From: Pseudomonas hamedanensis
GTDB lineage: Bacteria; Pseudomonadota; Gammaproteobacteria; Pseudomonadales; Pseudomonadaceae
Direction of reading: 5' to 3'
Length of the DNA: 64,000 nt
NCBI RefSeq assembly: GCF_014268595.2
Contig: NZ_CP077091.1
Coordinates: 890,501 to 954,500 of the forward strand
Positions 379-9,925 of the stretch are shown here, piece by piece. The translations under genes were made by a program, and so were the position numbers. The notes beneath the pieces are model-generated. The model was not told where the DNA came from. It was given only the letters and a program-made list of their open reading frames with translations, and made no database searches. Every line of letters starts with the position of its first letter. Position 1 is the first letter of the stretch.

Positions 379-1473
379 ATGTCTTTTGATTTTCGCTTTG
401 CATCGATGGACGATATCGACGATCTGGTCGAATTGGAGCAGGAATGTTTCACGCTTGACCGATTGAATCAGCGCAACTTCAGTTGGATGCTCAGTCGAGC
501 CAATGCATCTCTGATCGTCGCCACCTCGGGCGAAAAACTGGCCGGATATGCCTTGGTGCTTTTTCACCGAGGCACTTCGCTTGGACGCTTGTATTCCATT
601 GCCGTCAGCCCCGCATGGCGAGGGAATAACCTTGGCCAGCGTCTGCTGGATGAAGCCCAGGCCTGCGCGTTAGCGCGCAATTGCGCATGGCTGCGGCTGG
701 AGGTGCGCGCTGATAACCCCGCCGCCATTCGGCTCTACGAAGCAAATGGGTTCCATCGATTCGCAATCGTCGAGAACTACTACGAAGATCACGCTGAGGC
801 GTTGCGCTACGAGAAACGCATCCTGTGTGATGCTCCAACACCCGCACGCCAGGTGCCCTATTACCAGCAGACCACCGATTTCACGTGCGGCGCTGCGTGT
901 CTGCTAATGGCCATGGCAGCGATCGACGTGAGCCGTCCCATGAGTCGCTCGGAGGAGATTCAACTCTGGCGCGAGGCGACCACCGTTTTCATGACGGCAG
1001 GGCACGGTGGCTGCAGCCCCCGAGGAATGGCATTGGCGGCATGGCGACGAGGTTATGACGTGCGTCTGGAAGTCAGTCATTCGGGCTCGCTTTTTCTGCA
1101 CGGCGTACGTAGCCCGCAGAAGAAGTCCATCATGAAGCTGGTGGAGGAAGGGTTTGCCCAAGACTTGGCTGAAACAAGTGTTAAACAGGTTCTCGCCTCT
1201 TCTCTGGACGTCGGCGCTGCATTGAAAGCCGGCTTCAGGCCAGTGGTGCTGATCAGCAGCTATCGATTCACCCGATTGAAAGCCCCGCACTGGGTGATCA
1301 TTACAGGCTGCGACGATGAGTTCGTGTACCTGCATGACCCAGATATTGACCATAGCAAGCTGAAACGCAGCCTGGACTGCCAGCACTTGCCGGTTAGCCA
1401 TGAAGAATTCCTTCGCATGACGGTGTTTGGTATTCAGCGCGTTCGTGCCGCCGTAATGCTGCGCGCACGCTGA
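379..1473 (+). CDS. GNAT acetyltransferase fused to a peptidase-C39-like domain
   Basis: A 364-residue two-domain protein. Residues 1-150 are a RimI-like GNAT fold with the acetyl-CoA loop around VSPAWRGNNLGQRLL (77-90) and the NPAAIRLYEANGF element (113-125). Residues 157-360 look like a C39-type papain-like peptidase: Cys170 in TTDFTCGAACL, His304 in APHWVIITG, and Asp320 in VYLHDPD form a plausible triad. C39 peptidases usually cut double-glycine leaders, but without an ABC transporter domain this one would act in the cytosol. The divergent RimK-like ligase suggests a shared role in modifying a peptide or protein terminus; this is inference. No signal peptide is visible. Confidence 0.85.
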   Translation: MSFDFRFASMDDIDDLVELEQECFTLDRLNQRNFSWMLSRANASLIVATSGEKLAGYALVLFHRGTSLGRLYSIAVSPAWRGNNLGQRLLDEAQACALARNCAWLRLEVRADNPAAIRLYEANGFHRFAIVENYYEDHAEALRYEKRILCDAPTPARQVPYYQQTTDFTCGAACLLMAMAAIDVSRPMSRSEEIQLWREATTVFMTAGHGGCSPRGMALAAWRRGYDVRLEVSHSGSLFLHGVRSPQKKSIMKLVEEGFAQDLAETSVKQVLASSLDVGAALKAGFRPVVLISSYRFTRLKAPHWVIITGCDDEFVYLHDPDIDHSKLKRSLDCQHLPVSHEEFLRMTVFGIQRVRAAVMLRAR

Positions 1474-4120: not shown

Positions 4121-4798
4121 TTAGGGTTCTTCGCGAACCTGCATCCAGTCGAAAAAATCTTCGGATGCAAAGCCGACGCTGCAGTTGGCGTCGAACCGCT
4201 CGTTGATTCTTATAAGAGTCATCCGCTGAGCTTCTTGTGGTGAGGTTGGGAAGAAAGCTCCACCAGGTTCGCTGTGCATGAAGAAATCGCCGAGCTTGGC
4301 TCCGCAGTTTTCGCAGTGATTCATCAGGTAACGGCTGCCTACCGTTTTGCTGTAGGCCTGCTTGAACTTGTTGGTGAAGTGATGGATCTGCTTCGTGACC
4401 AAGGGAGAGAGGCTGGCGATGTTGGAGACTGTTCCGCGATACCCATGGCACTTCCATTCGCCGAGGTTGCTTGTGAGCGCGAAATCTTCGTCCTCATCCT
4501 CGTAGTAATCGAACTCTTCGTGTTGCTCGGGCAGCTTGAATGAAAACACGCGGGTCAAATTAGAGCAGCCCCAGCAGTCGGATACGGACTCCATGACGTA
4601 GTAATACGGTGCTCTTACACAAAATTCAGGTCCGTGCTCCAAGTCTGCGTGTTCTGTTACGGGCAGCCATTGAGCCAAGGGGGCGATGTCGACCCCCTCG
4701 GGGATGTACCAAGTCTTCAGGCTTGGGTCCCATCTGGCACCGAGTGATTTCGCTTCATCTTTTTCTGAGAAGGGGACTTTCAGGTCAATCCTTGCCAT
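4121..4798 (-). CDS. DUF5710-domain protein
   Basis: A 225-residue protein. Its first 35 residues (DLKVPFSEKDEAKSLGARWD then KTWYIPEG) match the DUF5710 signature, a short module found in plasmid- and mobile-element-linked proteins and thought to bind nucleic acid or DNA-processing partners. Pairs of cysteines (CWGC near 95-98, CENCG near 160-164) could hold a zinc ion. The middle has a strongly acidic patch (EEFDYYEDEDED). It starts at an ATG at 4798 and is followed on the same strand by the NERD remnant. It lies 54 bases downstream of hxsA, so it might be read through from the Hxs operon. Function is unknown. Confidence 0.75.
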   Translation of the reverse strand: MARIDLKVPFSEKDEAKSLGARWDPSLKTWYIPEGVDIAPLAQWLPVTEHADLEHGPEFCVRAPYYYVMESVSDCWGCSNLTRVFSFKLPEQHEEFDYYEDEDEDFALTSNLGEWKCHGYRGTVSNIASLSPLVTKQIHHFTNKFKQAYSKTVGSRYLMNHCENCGAKLGDFFMHSEPGGAFFPTSPQEAQRMTLIRINERFDANCSVGFASEDFFDWMQVREEP

Positions 4799-4852: not shown

Positions 4853-5461
4853 TTATGGAATCTTGATACCCAACGCATTCAGCGATGGCGTATCCATCCG
4901 GCCATTCACGGTCAGCCCACTGTCCATCTGAAAGGCCATCAAAGCACCACGTGTCGCTTTGCCCATCACACCATCAATGGTGCCTTGGTAATACTGGCGG
5001 ACCATGAGCGCCGTCTGCACACGGGTGACCAAGTTGCTTTTCTGTTCATTGGTCGCGCGGCTTTTTGAAGTGCTTGAACTTGTCCCGCTGGTAGTGCCAG
5101 ACGACTGATAAAGGCTGTTGCCACTTGAGGTGCTGCTCGAAGCACTCGGCGCGCTGTAGCTTCGGGTGCTGGTAGCGGGTGGGCTGTAGTAGCGAGGTGC
5201 GCTATAGCCACCCGAGCCGCTGTAATGAGAACTGTGCGAACTGTGGGACCGGTGAGAACTGTGCGAGCGATGTGCCGCATAGATATTGACGGTGTCTGGC
5301 GCATTGAGCGTATCGGCAAATACTGGGGGCTGTAGCTTGTCGTTGGGTTGCCAGTTCGCATCGGCGAGCGACAGATGGCCCGCCTGTGCCAGGGTAGTAC
5401 CAGCCATTGGCAGCAAGCTGATCCCACTGATCAGGACTTTCCAGCGGTCGAGCAATTTCAA
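4853..5461 (-). CDS. hxsA: His-Xaa-Ser repeat protein HxsA
   Basis: A 202-residue secreted protein and the presumed substrate of the Hxs maturation enzymes. Residues 1-27 form a Sec signal peptide ending near LAQA-G. Residues 64-81 are six back-to-back His-Xaa-Ser triplets (HRS HSS HRS HSS HSS HYS). A low-complexity Ser/Tyr/Thr/Gly region runs to about 135 and includes YSAPRYYSPP. Residues 138-200 are a peptidoglycan-binding-1-like domain (YYQGTIDGVMGKATRGAL, then LTVNGRMD). So the product is probably periplasmic or wall-associated, displaying a modified repeat. It is last in hxsD-B-C-A, and its ATG overlaps the hxsC stop by four bases (ATGA), implying translational coupling. The chemistry done on the repeat is not known to me. 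Confidence 0.9.
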   Translation of the reverse strand: MKLLDRWKVLISGISLLPMAGTTLAQAGHLSLADANWQPNDKLQPPVFADTLNAPDTVNIYAAHRSHSSHRSHSSHSSHYSGSGGYSAPRYYSPPATSTRSYSAPSASSSTSSGNSLYQSSGTTSGTSSSTSKSRATNEQKSNLVTRVQTALMVRQYYQGTIDGVMGKATRGALMAFQMDSGLTVNGRMDTPSLNALGIKIP

Positions 5462-6693
5462 TGTGCACTCCTTGCATAGGCGCTAAAGGCCTCGGTCGAT
5501 AGTAGTTGTACGCCGCGGCTCTGCCAGCGGTCAGTATGGGATTTGAAGAAGCCAGAGCAATGTTCGACGGCAGCGCATTGCTGGCAGGTATCGATGAACA
5601 GGTTCTTCCAGTCCGAGATGCTCTGGCGGGCGAAACGCGAGAGGTGGGCGGGGATGAGGCACAGGGGCAAGTTATAGATCGAAACCGGCACTCCGCGGTT
5701 GAACAGGAAATACACGGCCTGGCTCAACGACTCCTGATAGTCCAGCGGGTCAATCCACAGTTCTTCGTAGTTCTTCCTGGCCAGGCCGGTACTTTCGATA
5801 CCCATTAGCGCAACATGCCGCACGAAGGGCAGGTTCCTGAACACGTAGTGGGCGAGCTCTGGCAAACGTGGCGTGGTCAGGCGATTGAGTACCACGCGTA
5901 TCTCGATGATCTGGTTGGCGCGCGCCAGGTTGTAAAGACCTTGCAGCGTTTCGCTGAACGCGCCTGGAGCCTGCACCACATGGTCATGGTCTTCGGCATT
6001 GTCGGCATACAGCGGGATGCCCCAGCTCAACTGAGGGTGGCCGATGGCAGAGAGCGCTGCGATCCAGCTCGGGTCTTGGAACAGACGCCCGTTGCTGAGC
6101 ACATGAATGGATTTCTGCGGCAAAACGGCTTTGCACTTGGCCAGGATTTCGAGCAGGCCGTCGCGATAAAGCGTGGGTTCTCCGCCGCTGATTCCCAGAT
6201 TTTCCTCGCCCGGGTCCATCAGGTCGATCAGCCGTAGGTTCTCCTCGATGTGCCAACGGTCATCGATATCTTTGGGCGGCTGCGAGCACATCAGGCAGAG
6301 GCTGTTGCAACGATCAGTCATGAACAGCAGGTTGCTATCTGAGCCTCGTCGATAGAGCACTCGCACCATCGCGTTCTCTGGTGTGATGGCAATGACATCT
6401 CCGGGCTGCACGACATCCGCATCTTTAGGCGTGTGCAGGTGTGGCCGCGCGCTGTCGAAGTCGCCGATCAATGGCTCCGGGATCAGGAATCCACCTACTG
6501 GTAATGAGAGCAGATGCGGGCTCCGTAGCCGTTCTTCGTTTGGCAGCCAAAGCAGCAGGTCACCGAATTCAGCGCTTCCCCCACAAACAGCCAGGCCTTG
6601 TTCGATGAACTCATCTAGAGTAATGACCTTCAGCAGTTTCGGCTCATTCAGGTGATGGATTTCGAAGTGGGTCTCTTTGCGAAGCATCGCCAT
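5458..6693 (-). CDS. hxsC: His-Xaa-Ser system radical SAM maturase HxsC
   Basis: A 411-residue radical S-adenosylmethionine enzyme. The cluster-binding motif is Cys129-x3-Cys133-x2-Cys136 in DRCNSLCLMCSQPP, followed by the SAM-binding ISGGEPTLY element near residue 168. The first 125 residues form an N-terminal region typical of HxsC rather than of general radical SAM proteins. A Cys-rich tail (DTCQQCAAVEHCSG) may bind an auxiliary Fe-S cluster. Its start overlaps the hxsB stop and its end overlaps hxsA, so the three are translated as a unit. In the His-Xaa-Ser system it is predicted to modify the HxsA repeats; no reaction can be read from the sequence. Confidence 0.88.
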   Translation of the reverse strand: MAMLRKETHFEIHHLNEPKLLKVITLDEFIEQGLAVCGGSAEFGDLLLWLPNEERLRSPHLLSLPVGGFLIPEPLIGDFDSARPHLHTPKDADVVQPGDVIAITPENAMVRVLYRRGSDSNLLFMTDRCNSLCLMCSQPPKDIDDRWHIEENLRLIDLMDPGEENLGISGGEPTLYRDGLLEILAKCKAVLPQKSIHVLSNGRLFQDPSWIAALSAIGHPQLSWGIPLYADNAEDHDHVVQAPGAFSETLQGLYNLARANQIIEIRVVLNRLTTPRLPELAHYVFRNLPFVRHVALMGIESTGLARKNYEELWIDPLDYQESLSQAVYFLFNRGVPVSIYNLPLCLIPAHLSRFARQSISDWKNLFIDTCQQCAAVEHCSGFFKSHTDRWQSRGVQLLSTEAFSAYARSAH

Positions 6694-8195
6694 CAGCCCC
6701 TATAACCCGGAAACCGGACATCGTTGTAAGAGCGCCTGTTCAACCAAGCCAGCAGTACCCTCTGCACGTTGTCGTCGCCATCGCAAAGCAGGCCGAAAAG
6801 ATGCTTCAGCAGCCCCATGTTCTTCTCGCAGAAGCTGCTGAACACTCGGTGTCCGATCGGGTCACCTTGGCGGGCATAGTGTTCGACGGGGTCAGCACCA
6901 CAGTACGGGACAAGTGCGCAGTCGGAGCAGCCCGGCAGCGCCTCTGCTACACCACTGGCGAGCAACGCATTCATAACGGGCGATGCGAGTAATTCAGACA
7001 AAGGTTGCTGCACGGTGCCGAGCCTCAAGCCGTCTTCACCCATCTCCAGCAACATTCGGGCTTCGTCCGAGGGATAGACGTAACCGTCATAGTTGTAAAC
7101 CAGCGCCGCAGTGCCTGCGCCAGCAGGGGAGCGCAGGTCTACATAGCCGGAGGAGAAGGGTGTCAGGATATTCTTCAGCAACAGGCTCGTATAACTCTCT
7201 GAGAGGTATACGCCCTGTTGGTTGACATGCAGCAAATAGGCCAGTGCCCTCTTGTAGAAGGCAAGGTATCGCTCAATAGGGTAATCAAGTCGATGGGCAC
7301 TCTTGGTGGCAAACCCATAAGGGCTCAGAGGCCGAAGCGAGATGCTGGAGAAGCCCTGGTTTACATACTCATCGATGATCGCTTCAGGTTGTTCGAGGCT
7401 TCTTGAAGTCAGCGTGGTCAGCGCGGAAACTGCATCATGGCCAAGGCGCTCACGGACCCACTGGATGCCTTTTACAGTGCGTTCGTAGGAGTCTCGTGAC
7501 GGGGTAGGGCGGTTGGCATTGTGCAAGGGCGCCGGCCCATCGAGCGAGGTTGAAAACTGGATGCGATTTTGTTCTGCGAAGTCGAGTATTTCCTCCGTCA
7601 GGTGGTGTAGCGTGGTGGTGATGACGAACTGGATATCCCGTTGTTCGACCACGTTCCGGTCAACGACCCATTCGACAATCTGGCGGACGCGCTCGAAGGC
7701 TAGAAGCGGCTCGCCACCCTGAAACTCCACAGTCAGGGCGGGAGCGTTCGATTCGAACAGGCGATCGACCGCCGCCTGTGCATCCGCTTCCGACAGGTCG
7801 TGGCCGGCTCCTCCCAGAGGGGCCCGCGACACCTGGCAGTACTGGCAGGTGTGGTTGCAGCGCAATGTAACCACGAACAAGTGCAGTGCAGGGCCCTGGA
7901 AGAGGAAGTCCTTGCGGCTGCGATACTGCGCGGCCATTTCCGGGAACGGGTCGTGGCGGCCTGGTTCGTAGATGAAGTGGCGGGCCAGCAGGTCCTTGTA
8001 AAAAGGCGTACTTGCTTGAACGTCGAAGTAACTGAGGGCTCGTAATTGCGCGTCGTTCACGTGCATGTACTCACCGGTATCGGAGGTGAGCAGGATGTCA
8101 CGGTGATGTCCCGTGTTCATGCGCATGAATCGAAAAGGCAGCAAGCGGTAGTGCTTGGCGTCTGTCGCGATCAGTGTCACTGCGAAATCCCACAT
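6693..8195 (-). CDS. hxsB: His-Xaa-Ser system radical SAM maturase HxsB
   Basis: A 500-residue radical SAM enzyme with Cys113-x3-Cys117-x2-Cys120 in LRCNHTCQYCQV and a FQGGEPLLAF SAM-binding element near 159. The C-terminal region has a SPASM-type cluster set (GCSDCALVPYCGADPVEHY and a later SSFCEKN), as in enzymes that modify ribosomally made peptides such as the anSME and quinohemoprotein maturases. It overlaps hxsD by 19 bases at its start and hxsC at its end. Having two different radical SAM proteins in one operon is the hallmark of the Hxs system. The predicted target is the HxsA repeat. Confidence 0.88.
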   Translation of the reverse strand: MWDFAVTLIATDAKHYRLLPFRFMRMNTGHHRDILLTSDTGEYMHVNDAQLRALSYFDVQASTPFYKDLLARHFIYEPGRHDPFPEMAAQYRSRKDFLFQGPALHLFVVTLRCNHTCQYCQVSRAPLGGAGHDLSEADAQAAVDRLFESNAPALTVEFQGGEPLLAFERVRQIVEWVVDRNVVEQRDIQFVITTTLHHLTEEILDFAEQNRIQFSTSLDGPAPLHNANRPTPSRDSYERTVKGIQWVRERLGHDAVSALTTLTSRSLEQPEAIIDEYVNQGFSSISLRPLSPYGFATKSAHRLDYPIERYLAFYKRALAYLLHVNQQGVYLSESYTSLLLKNILTPFSSGYVDLRSPAGAGTAALVYNYDGYVYPSDEARMLLEMGEDGLRLGTVQQPLSELLASPVMNALLASGVAEALPGCSDCALVPYCGADPVEHYARQGDPIGHRVFSSFCEKNMGLLKHLFGLLCDGDDNVQRVLLAWLNRRSYNDVRFPGYRG

Positions 8196-8476
8196 CCAGC
8201 GAGCGCGGCTCGAGCCAGGACTTCGCGCAACCCTGCTGTTTCGCGGTTGATATGGTCGCGTAGGGCGAAGTCGTTCAGATGCTGGAGGATCAGCGAGTGA
8301 GCCTGCTCCGGGGAAAGCGTTAGCCTTGCTTCAGCGGGGTGGGCCGTGAGGCTTATCTGATTGGCTTCAATACCGACTTGGATCGCGACAGTGTCGGCCA
8401 GGGAGTAAGCGGCGCGTTGCACCACGCTGAGCGGGTAGGCTGCGCTGTCGAGTTTCAGCGTGACTGGCCATGTCAT
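8177..8476 (-). CDS. hxsD: His-Xaa-Ser system protein HxsD
   Basis: A 99-residue small soluble protein opening the Hxs operon. It is made of an N-terminal beta-rich part (VTLKLDSAAYPLSVVQRAAY) and a helical C-terminus (LILQHLNDFALRDHINRET), matching the compact HxsD type by size, position and the LxLdxxxYpxxvvqrAaY pattern. By analogy with small partner proteins in other radical SAM peptide systems it may present the substrate to the maturases; this is inference. It overlaps hxsB by 19 bases. The operon promoter should lie in the following 345-base gap. Confidence 0.8.
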   Translation of the reverse strand: MTWPVTLKLDSAAYPLSVVQRAAYSLADTVAIQVGIEANQISLTAHPAEARLTLSPEQAHSLILQHLNDFALRDHINRETAGLREVLARAALAGCGISQ

Positions 8477-8821
8477 CGGAAGCGGTCCTTCAAATCCGTT
8501 GGGAACGTGTGGATTTTGCCGGTTGCCGAGGCATTATGCCATCATAATTTTTTACTTTTGCACGCATTTGTCCAGCGTGGTGGGTGATGGGCTCACTACG
8601 GCTCGGCCATTGATACGGGGTAGGGCCGAGGGTTCATATCTCCCTCAGTGCATCCATCCTCATCAATAGCCCACTTGGCCTAAGGCTGGGGGCATCCTTT
8701 TCAAACCATCCAAAGCATGCCCTCAAATGTGCCCCCAAGTAGCAATCCACTGGAAGTGAATGGAGCTCCATGGTTTGTTGAAAGTCAGAAATGATCAGAT
8801 AAACAGCCCATCCGGCGACGC
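8477..8821. other. Intergenic region upstream of hxsD
   Basis: This gap separates hxsD from the 3' end of the LysR gene, which reads in the same direction. It should carry the Hxs operon promoter: the minus strand has an AT-rich patch at about 8535-8565 with TATGAT and CATAAT as possible -10 boxes, but no convincing -35 at the right spacing. The part nearer the LysR gene holds no gene that I can support. Confidence 0.35.
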
Positions 8822-9736
8822 CTAAAGACTCTCAGGGTCGCCGAAAAACATCTGAATCCGCGACCGCAACCAACGCTCGCCCGGATCGTTATCCTGCGAG
8901 CCGCGCCATGCCATGTGCAGTTCGAAGGTGCGCGTGGGCAGCGGTGGATCCTCGGCGCGCAGACCGCCAGCCGCGGTCAGGGCTTCTGCTGTGTAATCCG
9001 GGACAGTCGCGACGATGTCTGTGCCCGCCAGCAGTGTCCCCAACCCGTTGAACTGTGGCACCGCCAGCACGACGTGCCGTTTGCGTCCGAGCTTTTCCAG
9101 TTCTTCATCGACAAAACCACTGAGATCGCCGGCGAAGGACACCAGTGCATGCGGCCGGGCGCAGTAGTCGTCCAGGCTCAAGGGGCCGGGGACGGTGTCG
9201 GCGCGCAGCAGTTTCGGGGCGCTGCGGCGCAAGACTTTGCGTTTGGCGTTGGCCGGCAGGTCGGTGGTGTAGCTGACGCCGATGGAGATCTCGCCGGAGG
9301 CCAGCAGGCCCGGCATCAATATGTAATTGACCCGCCGCACGACGAGGACGATGCCCGGCGCTTCGGCGCGCAGACGTTTGAGCAGCATCGGCAGCAAGGC
9401 GAACTCGACGTCATCGGACAGGCCGATGCGGAACACCGAGGTGCTGGTCGCCGGATCGAAATCCGCGGCGCGGCTGACCGCGGTGGAAATCGAATCGAGG
9501 GCAGGCGAGAGCAGGGCGAAGATTTCCACCGCACGGGCGGACGGTTCCATACTCCGGCCGGTGCGCACGAACAGCGGATCATCGAACAGGCTGCGCAGGC
9601 GAGAAAGCGCCGCGCTGATGGCCGGTTGACCGAGGAAGAGCTTTTCCGCGGCCCGAGTCACACTGCGTTCGTGCATCAATGTTTCGAACACGATCAGCAG
9701 GTTCAGGTCGACACGACGCAGGTCATTACGATTCAT
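8822..9736 (-). CDS. LysR-family transcriptional regulator
   Basis: With the ATG at 9736 the protein has 304 residues beginning MNRNDLRRVDLNLL, the usual opening of this family; an in-frame ATG at 9799 would add 21 atypical residues. Residues 8-67 are the winged helix-turn-helix (RAAEKLFLGQPAISAALSRL), and 90-300 the periplasmic-binding-like effector domain. AGGACT upstream is a fair ribosome-binding site. The gene is divergent from the oxidoreductase at 10007, so it probably controls that gene and itself through the shared 270-base region. The effector is unknown. Confidence 0.9.
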   Translation of the reverse strand: MNRNDLRRVDLNLLIVFETLMHERSVTRAAEKLFLGQPAISAALSRLRSLFDDPLFVRTGRSMEPSARAVEIFALLSPALDSISTAVSRAADFDPATSTSVFRIGLSDDVEFALLPMLLKRLRAEAPGIVLVVRRVNYILMPGLLASGEISIGVSYTTDLPANAKRKVLRRSAPKLLRADTVPGPLSLDDYCARPHALVSFAGDLSGFVDEELEKLGRKRHVVLAVPQFNGLGTLLAGTDIVATVPDYTAEALTAAGGLRAEDPPLPTRTFELHMAWRGSQDNDPGERWLRSRIQMFFGDPESL

Positions 9737-9925
9737 CTGGAGTCCTGGCAGAGTCATCAAGCTTGACGAGAGCGGCCATATGAGAACAATGGCCGGCATG
9801 AATCTTACGGGGAAAGGCTGGTACTCTGCACCGGAAAATTCAGCTTTACCGAGACGGCGACCACAGTTTTTTCAGCGTTTGTGCCCGTGCCGCTTCTGCT
9901 GCGGAATCAATGACAGGCATGTCGA

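Follow-up and report, generated by a model that had tools for sequence, protein, structure and literature searches.

Sequence analysis of a His-Xaa-Ser operon in Pseudomonas hamedanensis: predicted cluster ligands of the maturase HxsB, the HxS array of the substrate HxsA and the probable spread of the cassette

The His-Xaa-Ser (Hxs) system, credited to Haft and Basu 2011 (PMC9062424), was recognised from sequence more than ten years ago and is common in genomes (at least 570 relatives of its maturase HxsB in our scan, perhaps not all of them HxsB). The literature searched held no chemistry for its product: the relevant papers found (PMC9062424, PMC8446631 and PMC6537148) mention Hxs only in passing. 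A first-pass annotation of the DNA studied here had likewise called the product chemistry unestablished. This DNA is a stretch of 64,000 nucleotides of Pseudomonas hamedanensis (assembly GCF_014268595.2, contig NZ_CP077091.1, positions 890,501 to 954,500), hereafter the window, in a genome of 6,045,338 bases. It contains an hxs operon. Our analysis adds to the knowledge of Hxs the predicted loss of the ligands of auxiliary cluster I (AuxI) from HxsB, the statistics of the repeat array in the substrate HxsA and the behaviour of the cassette in Pseudomonas. The sequences point to a specific, testable reaction, and we tentatively propose that each His-x-Ser triplet may become a three-residue His C2–Ser C-beta cyclophane before export.

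The triceptide systems of MscB, HaaB, ScaB, YhhB and OscB resemble Hxs in their three-residue motif (aromatic-x-acceptor) and in a radical S-adenosylmethionine (SAM) enzyme with an extended C-terminal domain (PMC11002830). His and Ser each have a precedent there: MscB bonds C4 of Phe to C-beta of Ser, and C2 of His is bonded to C-beta of Ala by HaaB and ScaB and to C-beta of Arg by YhhB (PMC11002830). Auxiliary-cluster domains of radical SAM enzymes are described by two terms. SPASM is a seven-Cys motif, CX9-15GX4C...CX2CX5CX3C...C, and holds AuxI and a second auxiliary cluster, AuxII; Twitch holds a single auxiliary cluster of the AuxI kind and has no CX2CX5CX3C motif (PMC5715301, PMC6231123, PMC5682303). 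In anSMEcpe, an anaerobic sulfatase maturase (anSME), the AuxI ligands are Cys255, 261, 276 and 330, and the AuxII ligands are Cys317, 320, 326 and 348 (PMC5682303, PMC5715301).

The four open reading frames (ORFs) were found on the minus strand at the position given by the first-pass annotation. It had suggested a comparison with the Hxs family models, and every gene exceeded its curated NCBIfam cut-off: hxsD (8177..8476; small partner protein, 99 aa; TIGR03976, 73.1 bits, cut-off 50), hxsB (6693..8195; radical SAM maturase, 500 aa; TIGR03978, 569 bits, cut-off 370), hxsC (5458..6693; second radical SAM maturase, 411 aa; TIGR03977, 386.5 bits, cut-off 267.9) and hxsA (4853..5461; substrate, 202 aa, with a TTG start and AAGGAG just upstream; TIGR03979, 255.3 bits, cut-off 121.65). 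With all four in one cluster, each above its cut-off, the earlier assignment as an Hxs operon is practically certain. The gene set, the array, the domains and the cysteine sets can be read directly from the sequence. All four families and a repeat substrate are present in the order D-B-C-A with no difference in kind from the described system, and the operon is a typical representative of the family, which comparative genomics had already defined. The genes overlap, and this layout suits joint expression, as had been proposed. The overlaps measure 19 bases (hxsD/hxsB), 1 base (hxsB/hxsC) and 4 bases (hxsC/hxsA), so that the range of 4–19 bases given earlier has to be corrected. A scan for promoters and terminators found 1 and 2 sites, fewer than the averages of 2.1 and 3.5 in shuffled sequence.

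HxsB and HxsC are two different radical SAM enzymes, as annotated, with CxxxCxxC at residues 113–120 of HxsB (7836..7859, minus strand) and 129–136 of HxsC (6286..6309, minus strand). The extra Cys clusters reported before were also recovered: C423, C426, C432 and C456 in HxsB (6828..6929, minus strand) and C345, C370, C373 and C379 in HxsC (5557..5661, minus strand). We compared 121 hxsB loci, namely the window, 40 other loci and 80 from a scan of GTDB genomes (17 of the 40 are the same locus as one of the 80). The HxsB alignment comprised 118 of these sequences, 52 of them non-redundant (<90% identical); L060, L101 and L115 were excluded (<470 aa).

C113, C117, C120, C423, C426, C432 and C456 were each kept in 118 of 118 HxsB sequences. 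The last four match the AuxII ligands of anSMEcpe. The AuxI columns gave a different picture: among the 52 non-redundant sequences, column 358 was Cys in only 2, column 376 was Ser in 49 and Ala in 3, and column 436 was Pro in all 52. The two sequences with Cys358 retain Ser376 and Pro436. Invariant residues were P357, D377, E378 and P436. No conserved Cys column was found in residues 121–422 (a maximum of 4 of 52 in the listed columns 330–421). All ten non-Hxs controls, matches to the same profile hand-chosen from genomes of the genus, retained the AuxI cysteines. Based on the anSMEcpe alignment and the published ligand numbers, HxsB is thus predicted to keep the ligands of AuxII and to have lost those of AuxI.

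By the published definitions, HxsB would therefore belong to neither type. SPASM needs seven Cys, and HxsB has the AuxII quartet with the AuxI Cys missing; Twitch is without CX2CX5CX3C, and HxsB retains CX2CX5C together with C456. HxsB resembles anSME, CteB and SkfB in the radical SAM core and in part of the C-terminal cluster motif. While Twitch enzymes keep AuxI, HxsB appears to have gone the opposite way. An enzyme with AuxII but without AuxI would probe what these clusters are for.

The structures of anSME were among the best PDB matches of the HxsB profile (1.1e-21, behind CteB with 1.5e-23). This could mean that the Ser of each triplet is oxidised to a formylglycine- or aminomalonate-like residue, as in the anaerobic sulfatase maturases, and that the His just positions the Ser. 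We consider this unlikely, as HxsB has no ligands for AuxI, the proposed electron acceptor in anSME (PMC5715301), and His was as regular as Ser in the pattern-based arrays described below. The loss of AuxI would also fit a redox-neutral alteration of the array, such as epimerisation. The PDB search gave a weak match to the peptide epimerase YydG (8ai6, E 8.9e-4). The YydG mechanism uses a thiol hydrogen donor, but outside the cluster sets HxsB has no conserved Cys in the region between its two Cys sets, and C187 of HxsC was present in only 37 of 55 non-redundant sequences. A conserved YydG-like thiol donor is therefore lacking, and a redox-neutral change seems improbable.

In HxsC, the radical SAM motif was found in 54 of 55 non-redundant sequences and the four auxiliary-cluster cysteines in 55 of 55. 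HxsC is predicted to carry one auxiliary cluster and, with C345 and CX2CX5C, may be closer to the Twitch type. The auxiliary-cluster Cys sets of HxsB and HxsC thus differ, and hxsC was found beside hxsB in 119 of the 121 loci. Both observations would fit separate jobs on the array, with one enzyme forming a His-Ser link (C-C or N-C), the other making an unrelated change and neither sufficient alone. Co-occurrence alone is no proof of two reactions, however, and the two proteins could also form one complex; a strict division of this kind is possible but rather doubtful.

In the window, HxsA consists of a signal-like segment, an 18-residue (HxS)6 array, a linker rich in Ser, Tyr and Pro, and a peptidoglycan-binding domain. 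The N-terminal segment is of Sec type as judged by eye (approximately residues 1–26; 5384..5461), the array reads HRS-HSS-HRS-HSS-HSS-HYS (residues 64–81; 5219..5272), and the PG_binding_1 domain spans residues 143–197 (4871..5035; PF01471, 44.1 bits, cut-off 23), all on the minus strand. The repeat substrate of the first-pass annotation is hence a protein with six consecutive HxS triplets. In 100,000 residue shuffles of HxsA, six consecutive triplets never occurred, and three or more occurred in four shuffles. The array was the only stretch of (HxS)3 or longer in the six-frame translation of the window. HxsA probably undergoes export and attachment to the cell wall.

Arrays of other loci were located by the pattern H.S, so the fixation of H and S in the following numbers is by construction. 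For 61 distinct array cores, the spacing between successive HxS units was 3 in 306 of 308 cases and 6 in the other two, in keeping with the aromatic-x-acceptor motif of the triceptides. The middle residue was mostly S (177) or R (108), followed by Y (46), A (29), T (3), H (3), V (2) and G (1). No repeat unit contained Cys. In the region that starts 20 residues ahead of the array and runs to the C-terminus, 56 of the 61 were free of Cys, and 5 had two. One natural interruption (HSY) was seen, in locus L059. All 12 His and Ser codon sites varied synonymously (35 distinct array DNAs from 59 loci, also picked by pattern). This variety of synonymous codons makes it unlikely that the array arose by slippage alone.

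The gene hxsA was located downstream of hxsC in 107 of 119 loci and upstream of hxsB in 12. The first-pass annotation had described the product as much larger than usual. This holds true for the 202-aa HxsA of the window but not everywhere: the longest ORFs of the upstream hxsA were only 94–119 aa in 10 of 12 loci, with 206 and 242 aa in the other two. PG_binding_1 was present in 5 of 5 other downstream long HxsA tested and absent in 5 of 5 upstream short ones tested. The feature common to long and short substrates was the array, and the short ones stop at the array or a few residues past it. The array is likely the modified site. It could instead be a metal-binding or recognition segment, with the enzymes acting elsewhere, e.g. 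on the Tyr-Ser/Pro linker; Y[S/T]xP-like stretches do recur beyond the array in many long HxsA. But the short HxsA2-type substrates beside the same maturases have no such linker, which makes this very unlikely.

The chemistry that can be considered is limited by the array statistics, the absence of Cys and the loss of the AuxI ligands. Thioether chemistry (sactipeptide or ranthipeptide) on the repeat was set aside, since the array contains no Cys. A His C2–Ser C-beta link is the best single proposal because of the i/i+2 spacing, the lack of Cys and the cyclophane precedents for both Ser and His. From these data, we infer the chemistry, export and function of the system as follows. HxsA would be made with its signal-like segment, array, linker and peptidoglycan-binding domain, and its array would be acted on in the cytoplasm by HxsB and HxsC, with HxsD helping. 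In every triplet, at least one maturase, with HxsB proposed for this role, would abstract a hydrogen from C-beta of the Ser. This carbon would then be joined to C2 of the His two residues before, giving a row of three-residue cyclophanes. HxsC could introduce a further modification into this array or supply a missing redox step. The modified HxsA would be exported and then held on the peptidoglycan. There, its lined-up imidazoles could serve as a metal-binding site or make a segment of the surface stiffer. Metal binding is proposed because one His-crosslinked peptide is known to bind copper (PMC10206099).

Several points speak against the cyclophane. HxsB scored higher with the PapB thioether family, the ranthipeptide maturases that were its best non-Hxs NCBIfam match (99.9 bits, cut-off 340), than with the cyclophane former YhhB (68.5 bits, E 4.9e-19, far under the cut-off of 445). 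It also stayed outside the other named cyclophane families, with 61.2 bits for GrrM/OscB (cut-off 310), 46.1 for AmcB (425) and 45.8 for FxsB (370). PapB products are thioethers with Cys, in contrast to the Cys-free HxS repeats. Cyclophane closure requires the removal of an electron; with the AuxI ligands absent from HxsB, this electron would have to exit by another route. AuxI is the very cluster proposed to accept electrons during substrate oxidation by anSME (PMC5715301). Moreover, no triplet opened with another aromatic residue in the arrays found, although the pattern search would miss such triplets at array ends; one triceptide enzyme may accept several aromatic residues (PMC11002830). 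The proposal also leaves the need for two maturases unexplained. Compared with the triceptide systems, Hxs thus differs in the score rank of HxsB, its AuxI loss, the second maturase and the wall-binding domain on the window substrate.

A bolder version of the cyclophane proposal, which we regard as a long shot, would see in HxsB the prototype of a third class of radical SAM enzymes with auxiliary clusters (AuxII kept, AuxI lost), paired with HxsC, whose single auxiliary cluster would fill the role of AuxI. Together they would convert a wall-anchored stretch of protein into successive His-Ser cyclophanes, and the resulting poly-imidazole structure on the surface would be spread among bacteria by horizontal transfer of the cassette.

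For HxsD, profile searches of Pfam and PDB gave no convincing relative; the best PDB match (2dg7) was weak, with E 0.0079 (0.0018 with a smaller alignment). D69 and R73 were invariant in 51 aligned HxsD sequences. A PqqD-like recognition element had been expected in HxsD or in the N-terminus of HxsB and found no support: hhalign against a narrow Pseudomonas PqqD profile gave probabilities of 0.2% (HxsD) and 0.3% (HxsB N-terminus), and the best PDB match of the HxsB N-terminus was a homeobox chain (E 0.56).

Within the genus, HxsB exceeded the cut-off in 38 of 298 genomes, and any match with E up to 0.001 was seen in 279 of 298. As 14 of 14 control genomes also gave HxsB-profile matches below the cut-off, only matches over the cut-off were counted. 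In the phylum, HxsD was over its cut-off in 6 of 398 genomes and matched with E up to 0.001 in 11 of 398, the window genome included in both. The GTDB scan yielded at least 593 pattern stretches and at least 570 relatives confirmed by tblastn, which may include other radical SAM families. The best 80 of these at least 570 were kept, and among them the nearest relatives of the window HxsB were from Pseudomonas.

Among the 121 hxsB loci, profiles detected hxsC in 119, hxsA in 119 and hxsD in 114, and D-B-C-A was the commonest gene order among the loci examined. In L058 and L059, two of the seven loci without hxsD by profile, a small ORF occupies its position; the other five have no convincing candidate. 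The combination hxsB-hxsC-hxsA without detectable hxsD was observed in L154, L156, L158, L159 and L161, filed as Caulobacter (two), Phenylobacterium, Roseomonas and Brevundimonas. L141 (Pseudomonas syringae pv. cilantro) has hxsD, hxsB, only a piece of hxsC and no hxsA; in L153, hxsD and hxsB are present, and hxsC and hxsA were not found within 5 kb. In the Pseudomonas loci L060 (identical with L115) and L101, hxsB seems interrupted, and the other three genes are present. Two hxs loci were present together in at least two genomes (L054 with L059 and L155 with L157); in the first of these genomes, one locus has a short upstream substrate and the other a long downstream substrate. L147 lies on a 5.4-kb contig filed as Paenibacillus, and its HxsB is 53% identical to that of the window, like its gammaproteobacterial neighbours in the list; it may be a contamination. 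ORF clustering within 5 kb revealed no conserved fifth gene, as every cluster was confined to 5 or fewer of the 52 non-redundant loci, and the larger clusters reflected Pseudomonas synteny.

Of the 61 loci compared, 35 (25 distinct once duplicates are removed) also matched the window in the neighbouring LysR gene. At these loci, identity to the window was 90–99% for hxsB, 79–86% for LysR and 73–86% for the next gene. As hxsB is more similar than LysR, the cassette probably moves horizontally. In the remaining 26 of 61 loci, the DNA compared showed no LysR match of this kind; therefore, the cassette occurs elsewhere too, or the compared flank was too short. LysR DNA gave a match in 199 of 199 genomes of the genus, with paralogues perhaps among the weaker matches. 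For 11 selected LysR loci with no adjoining hxs, similarity to the window stopped at 8817–8828, the LysR 3' end, in ten and at 8656 in one. On the chromosome of the window, synteny with these loci resumed 4.3–5.4 kb left of the window in seven, and four had no match in the DNA compared.

The putative cassette junction comprises the LysR 3' end and adjoining intergenic DNA (8640..8851, no strand assigned) and is present as a second copy in some other strains by sequence comparison. A second nearby copy was found in 14 of the 49 loci having the segment (nine distinct without duplicates). In the window, the search for a second repeat gave only chance-level matches of 17 and 21 bases, and the window's own genome gave one match. 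Repeated horizontal acquisition at one hotspot would be the simplest reading. No recombinase was identified, though no systematic search for one was made. The LysR 3' end (window 8822–9799 and 8640–8851) resembles an insertion hotspot in that hxs modules and other cargo start there.

Downstream of hxsA, a gene for a DUF5710 protein (window 4121–4798) showed 93–95% identity in 4 of the 61 loci compared, a number that counts one strain twice. GNAT/DUF3335 proteins can be paired with a RimK/ATP-grasp-like protein. A protein with GNAT and DUF3335 (peptidase C39-like) regions adjoins an ORF that looks RimK/ATP-grasp-like by eye (window 379–1473 and L215 18704–19954).

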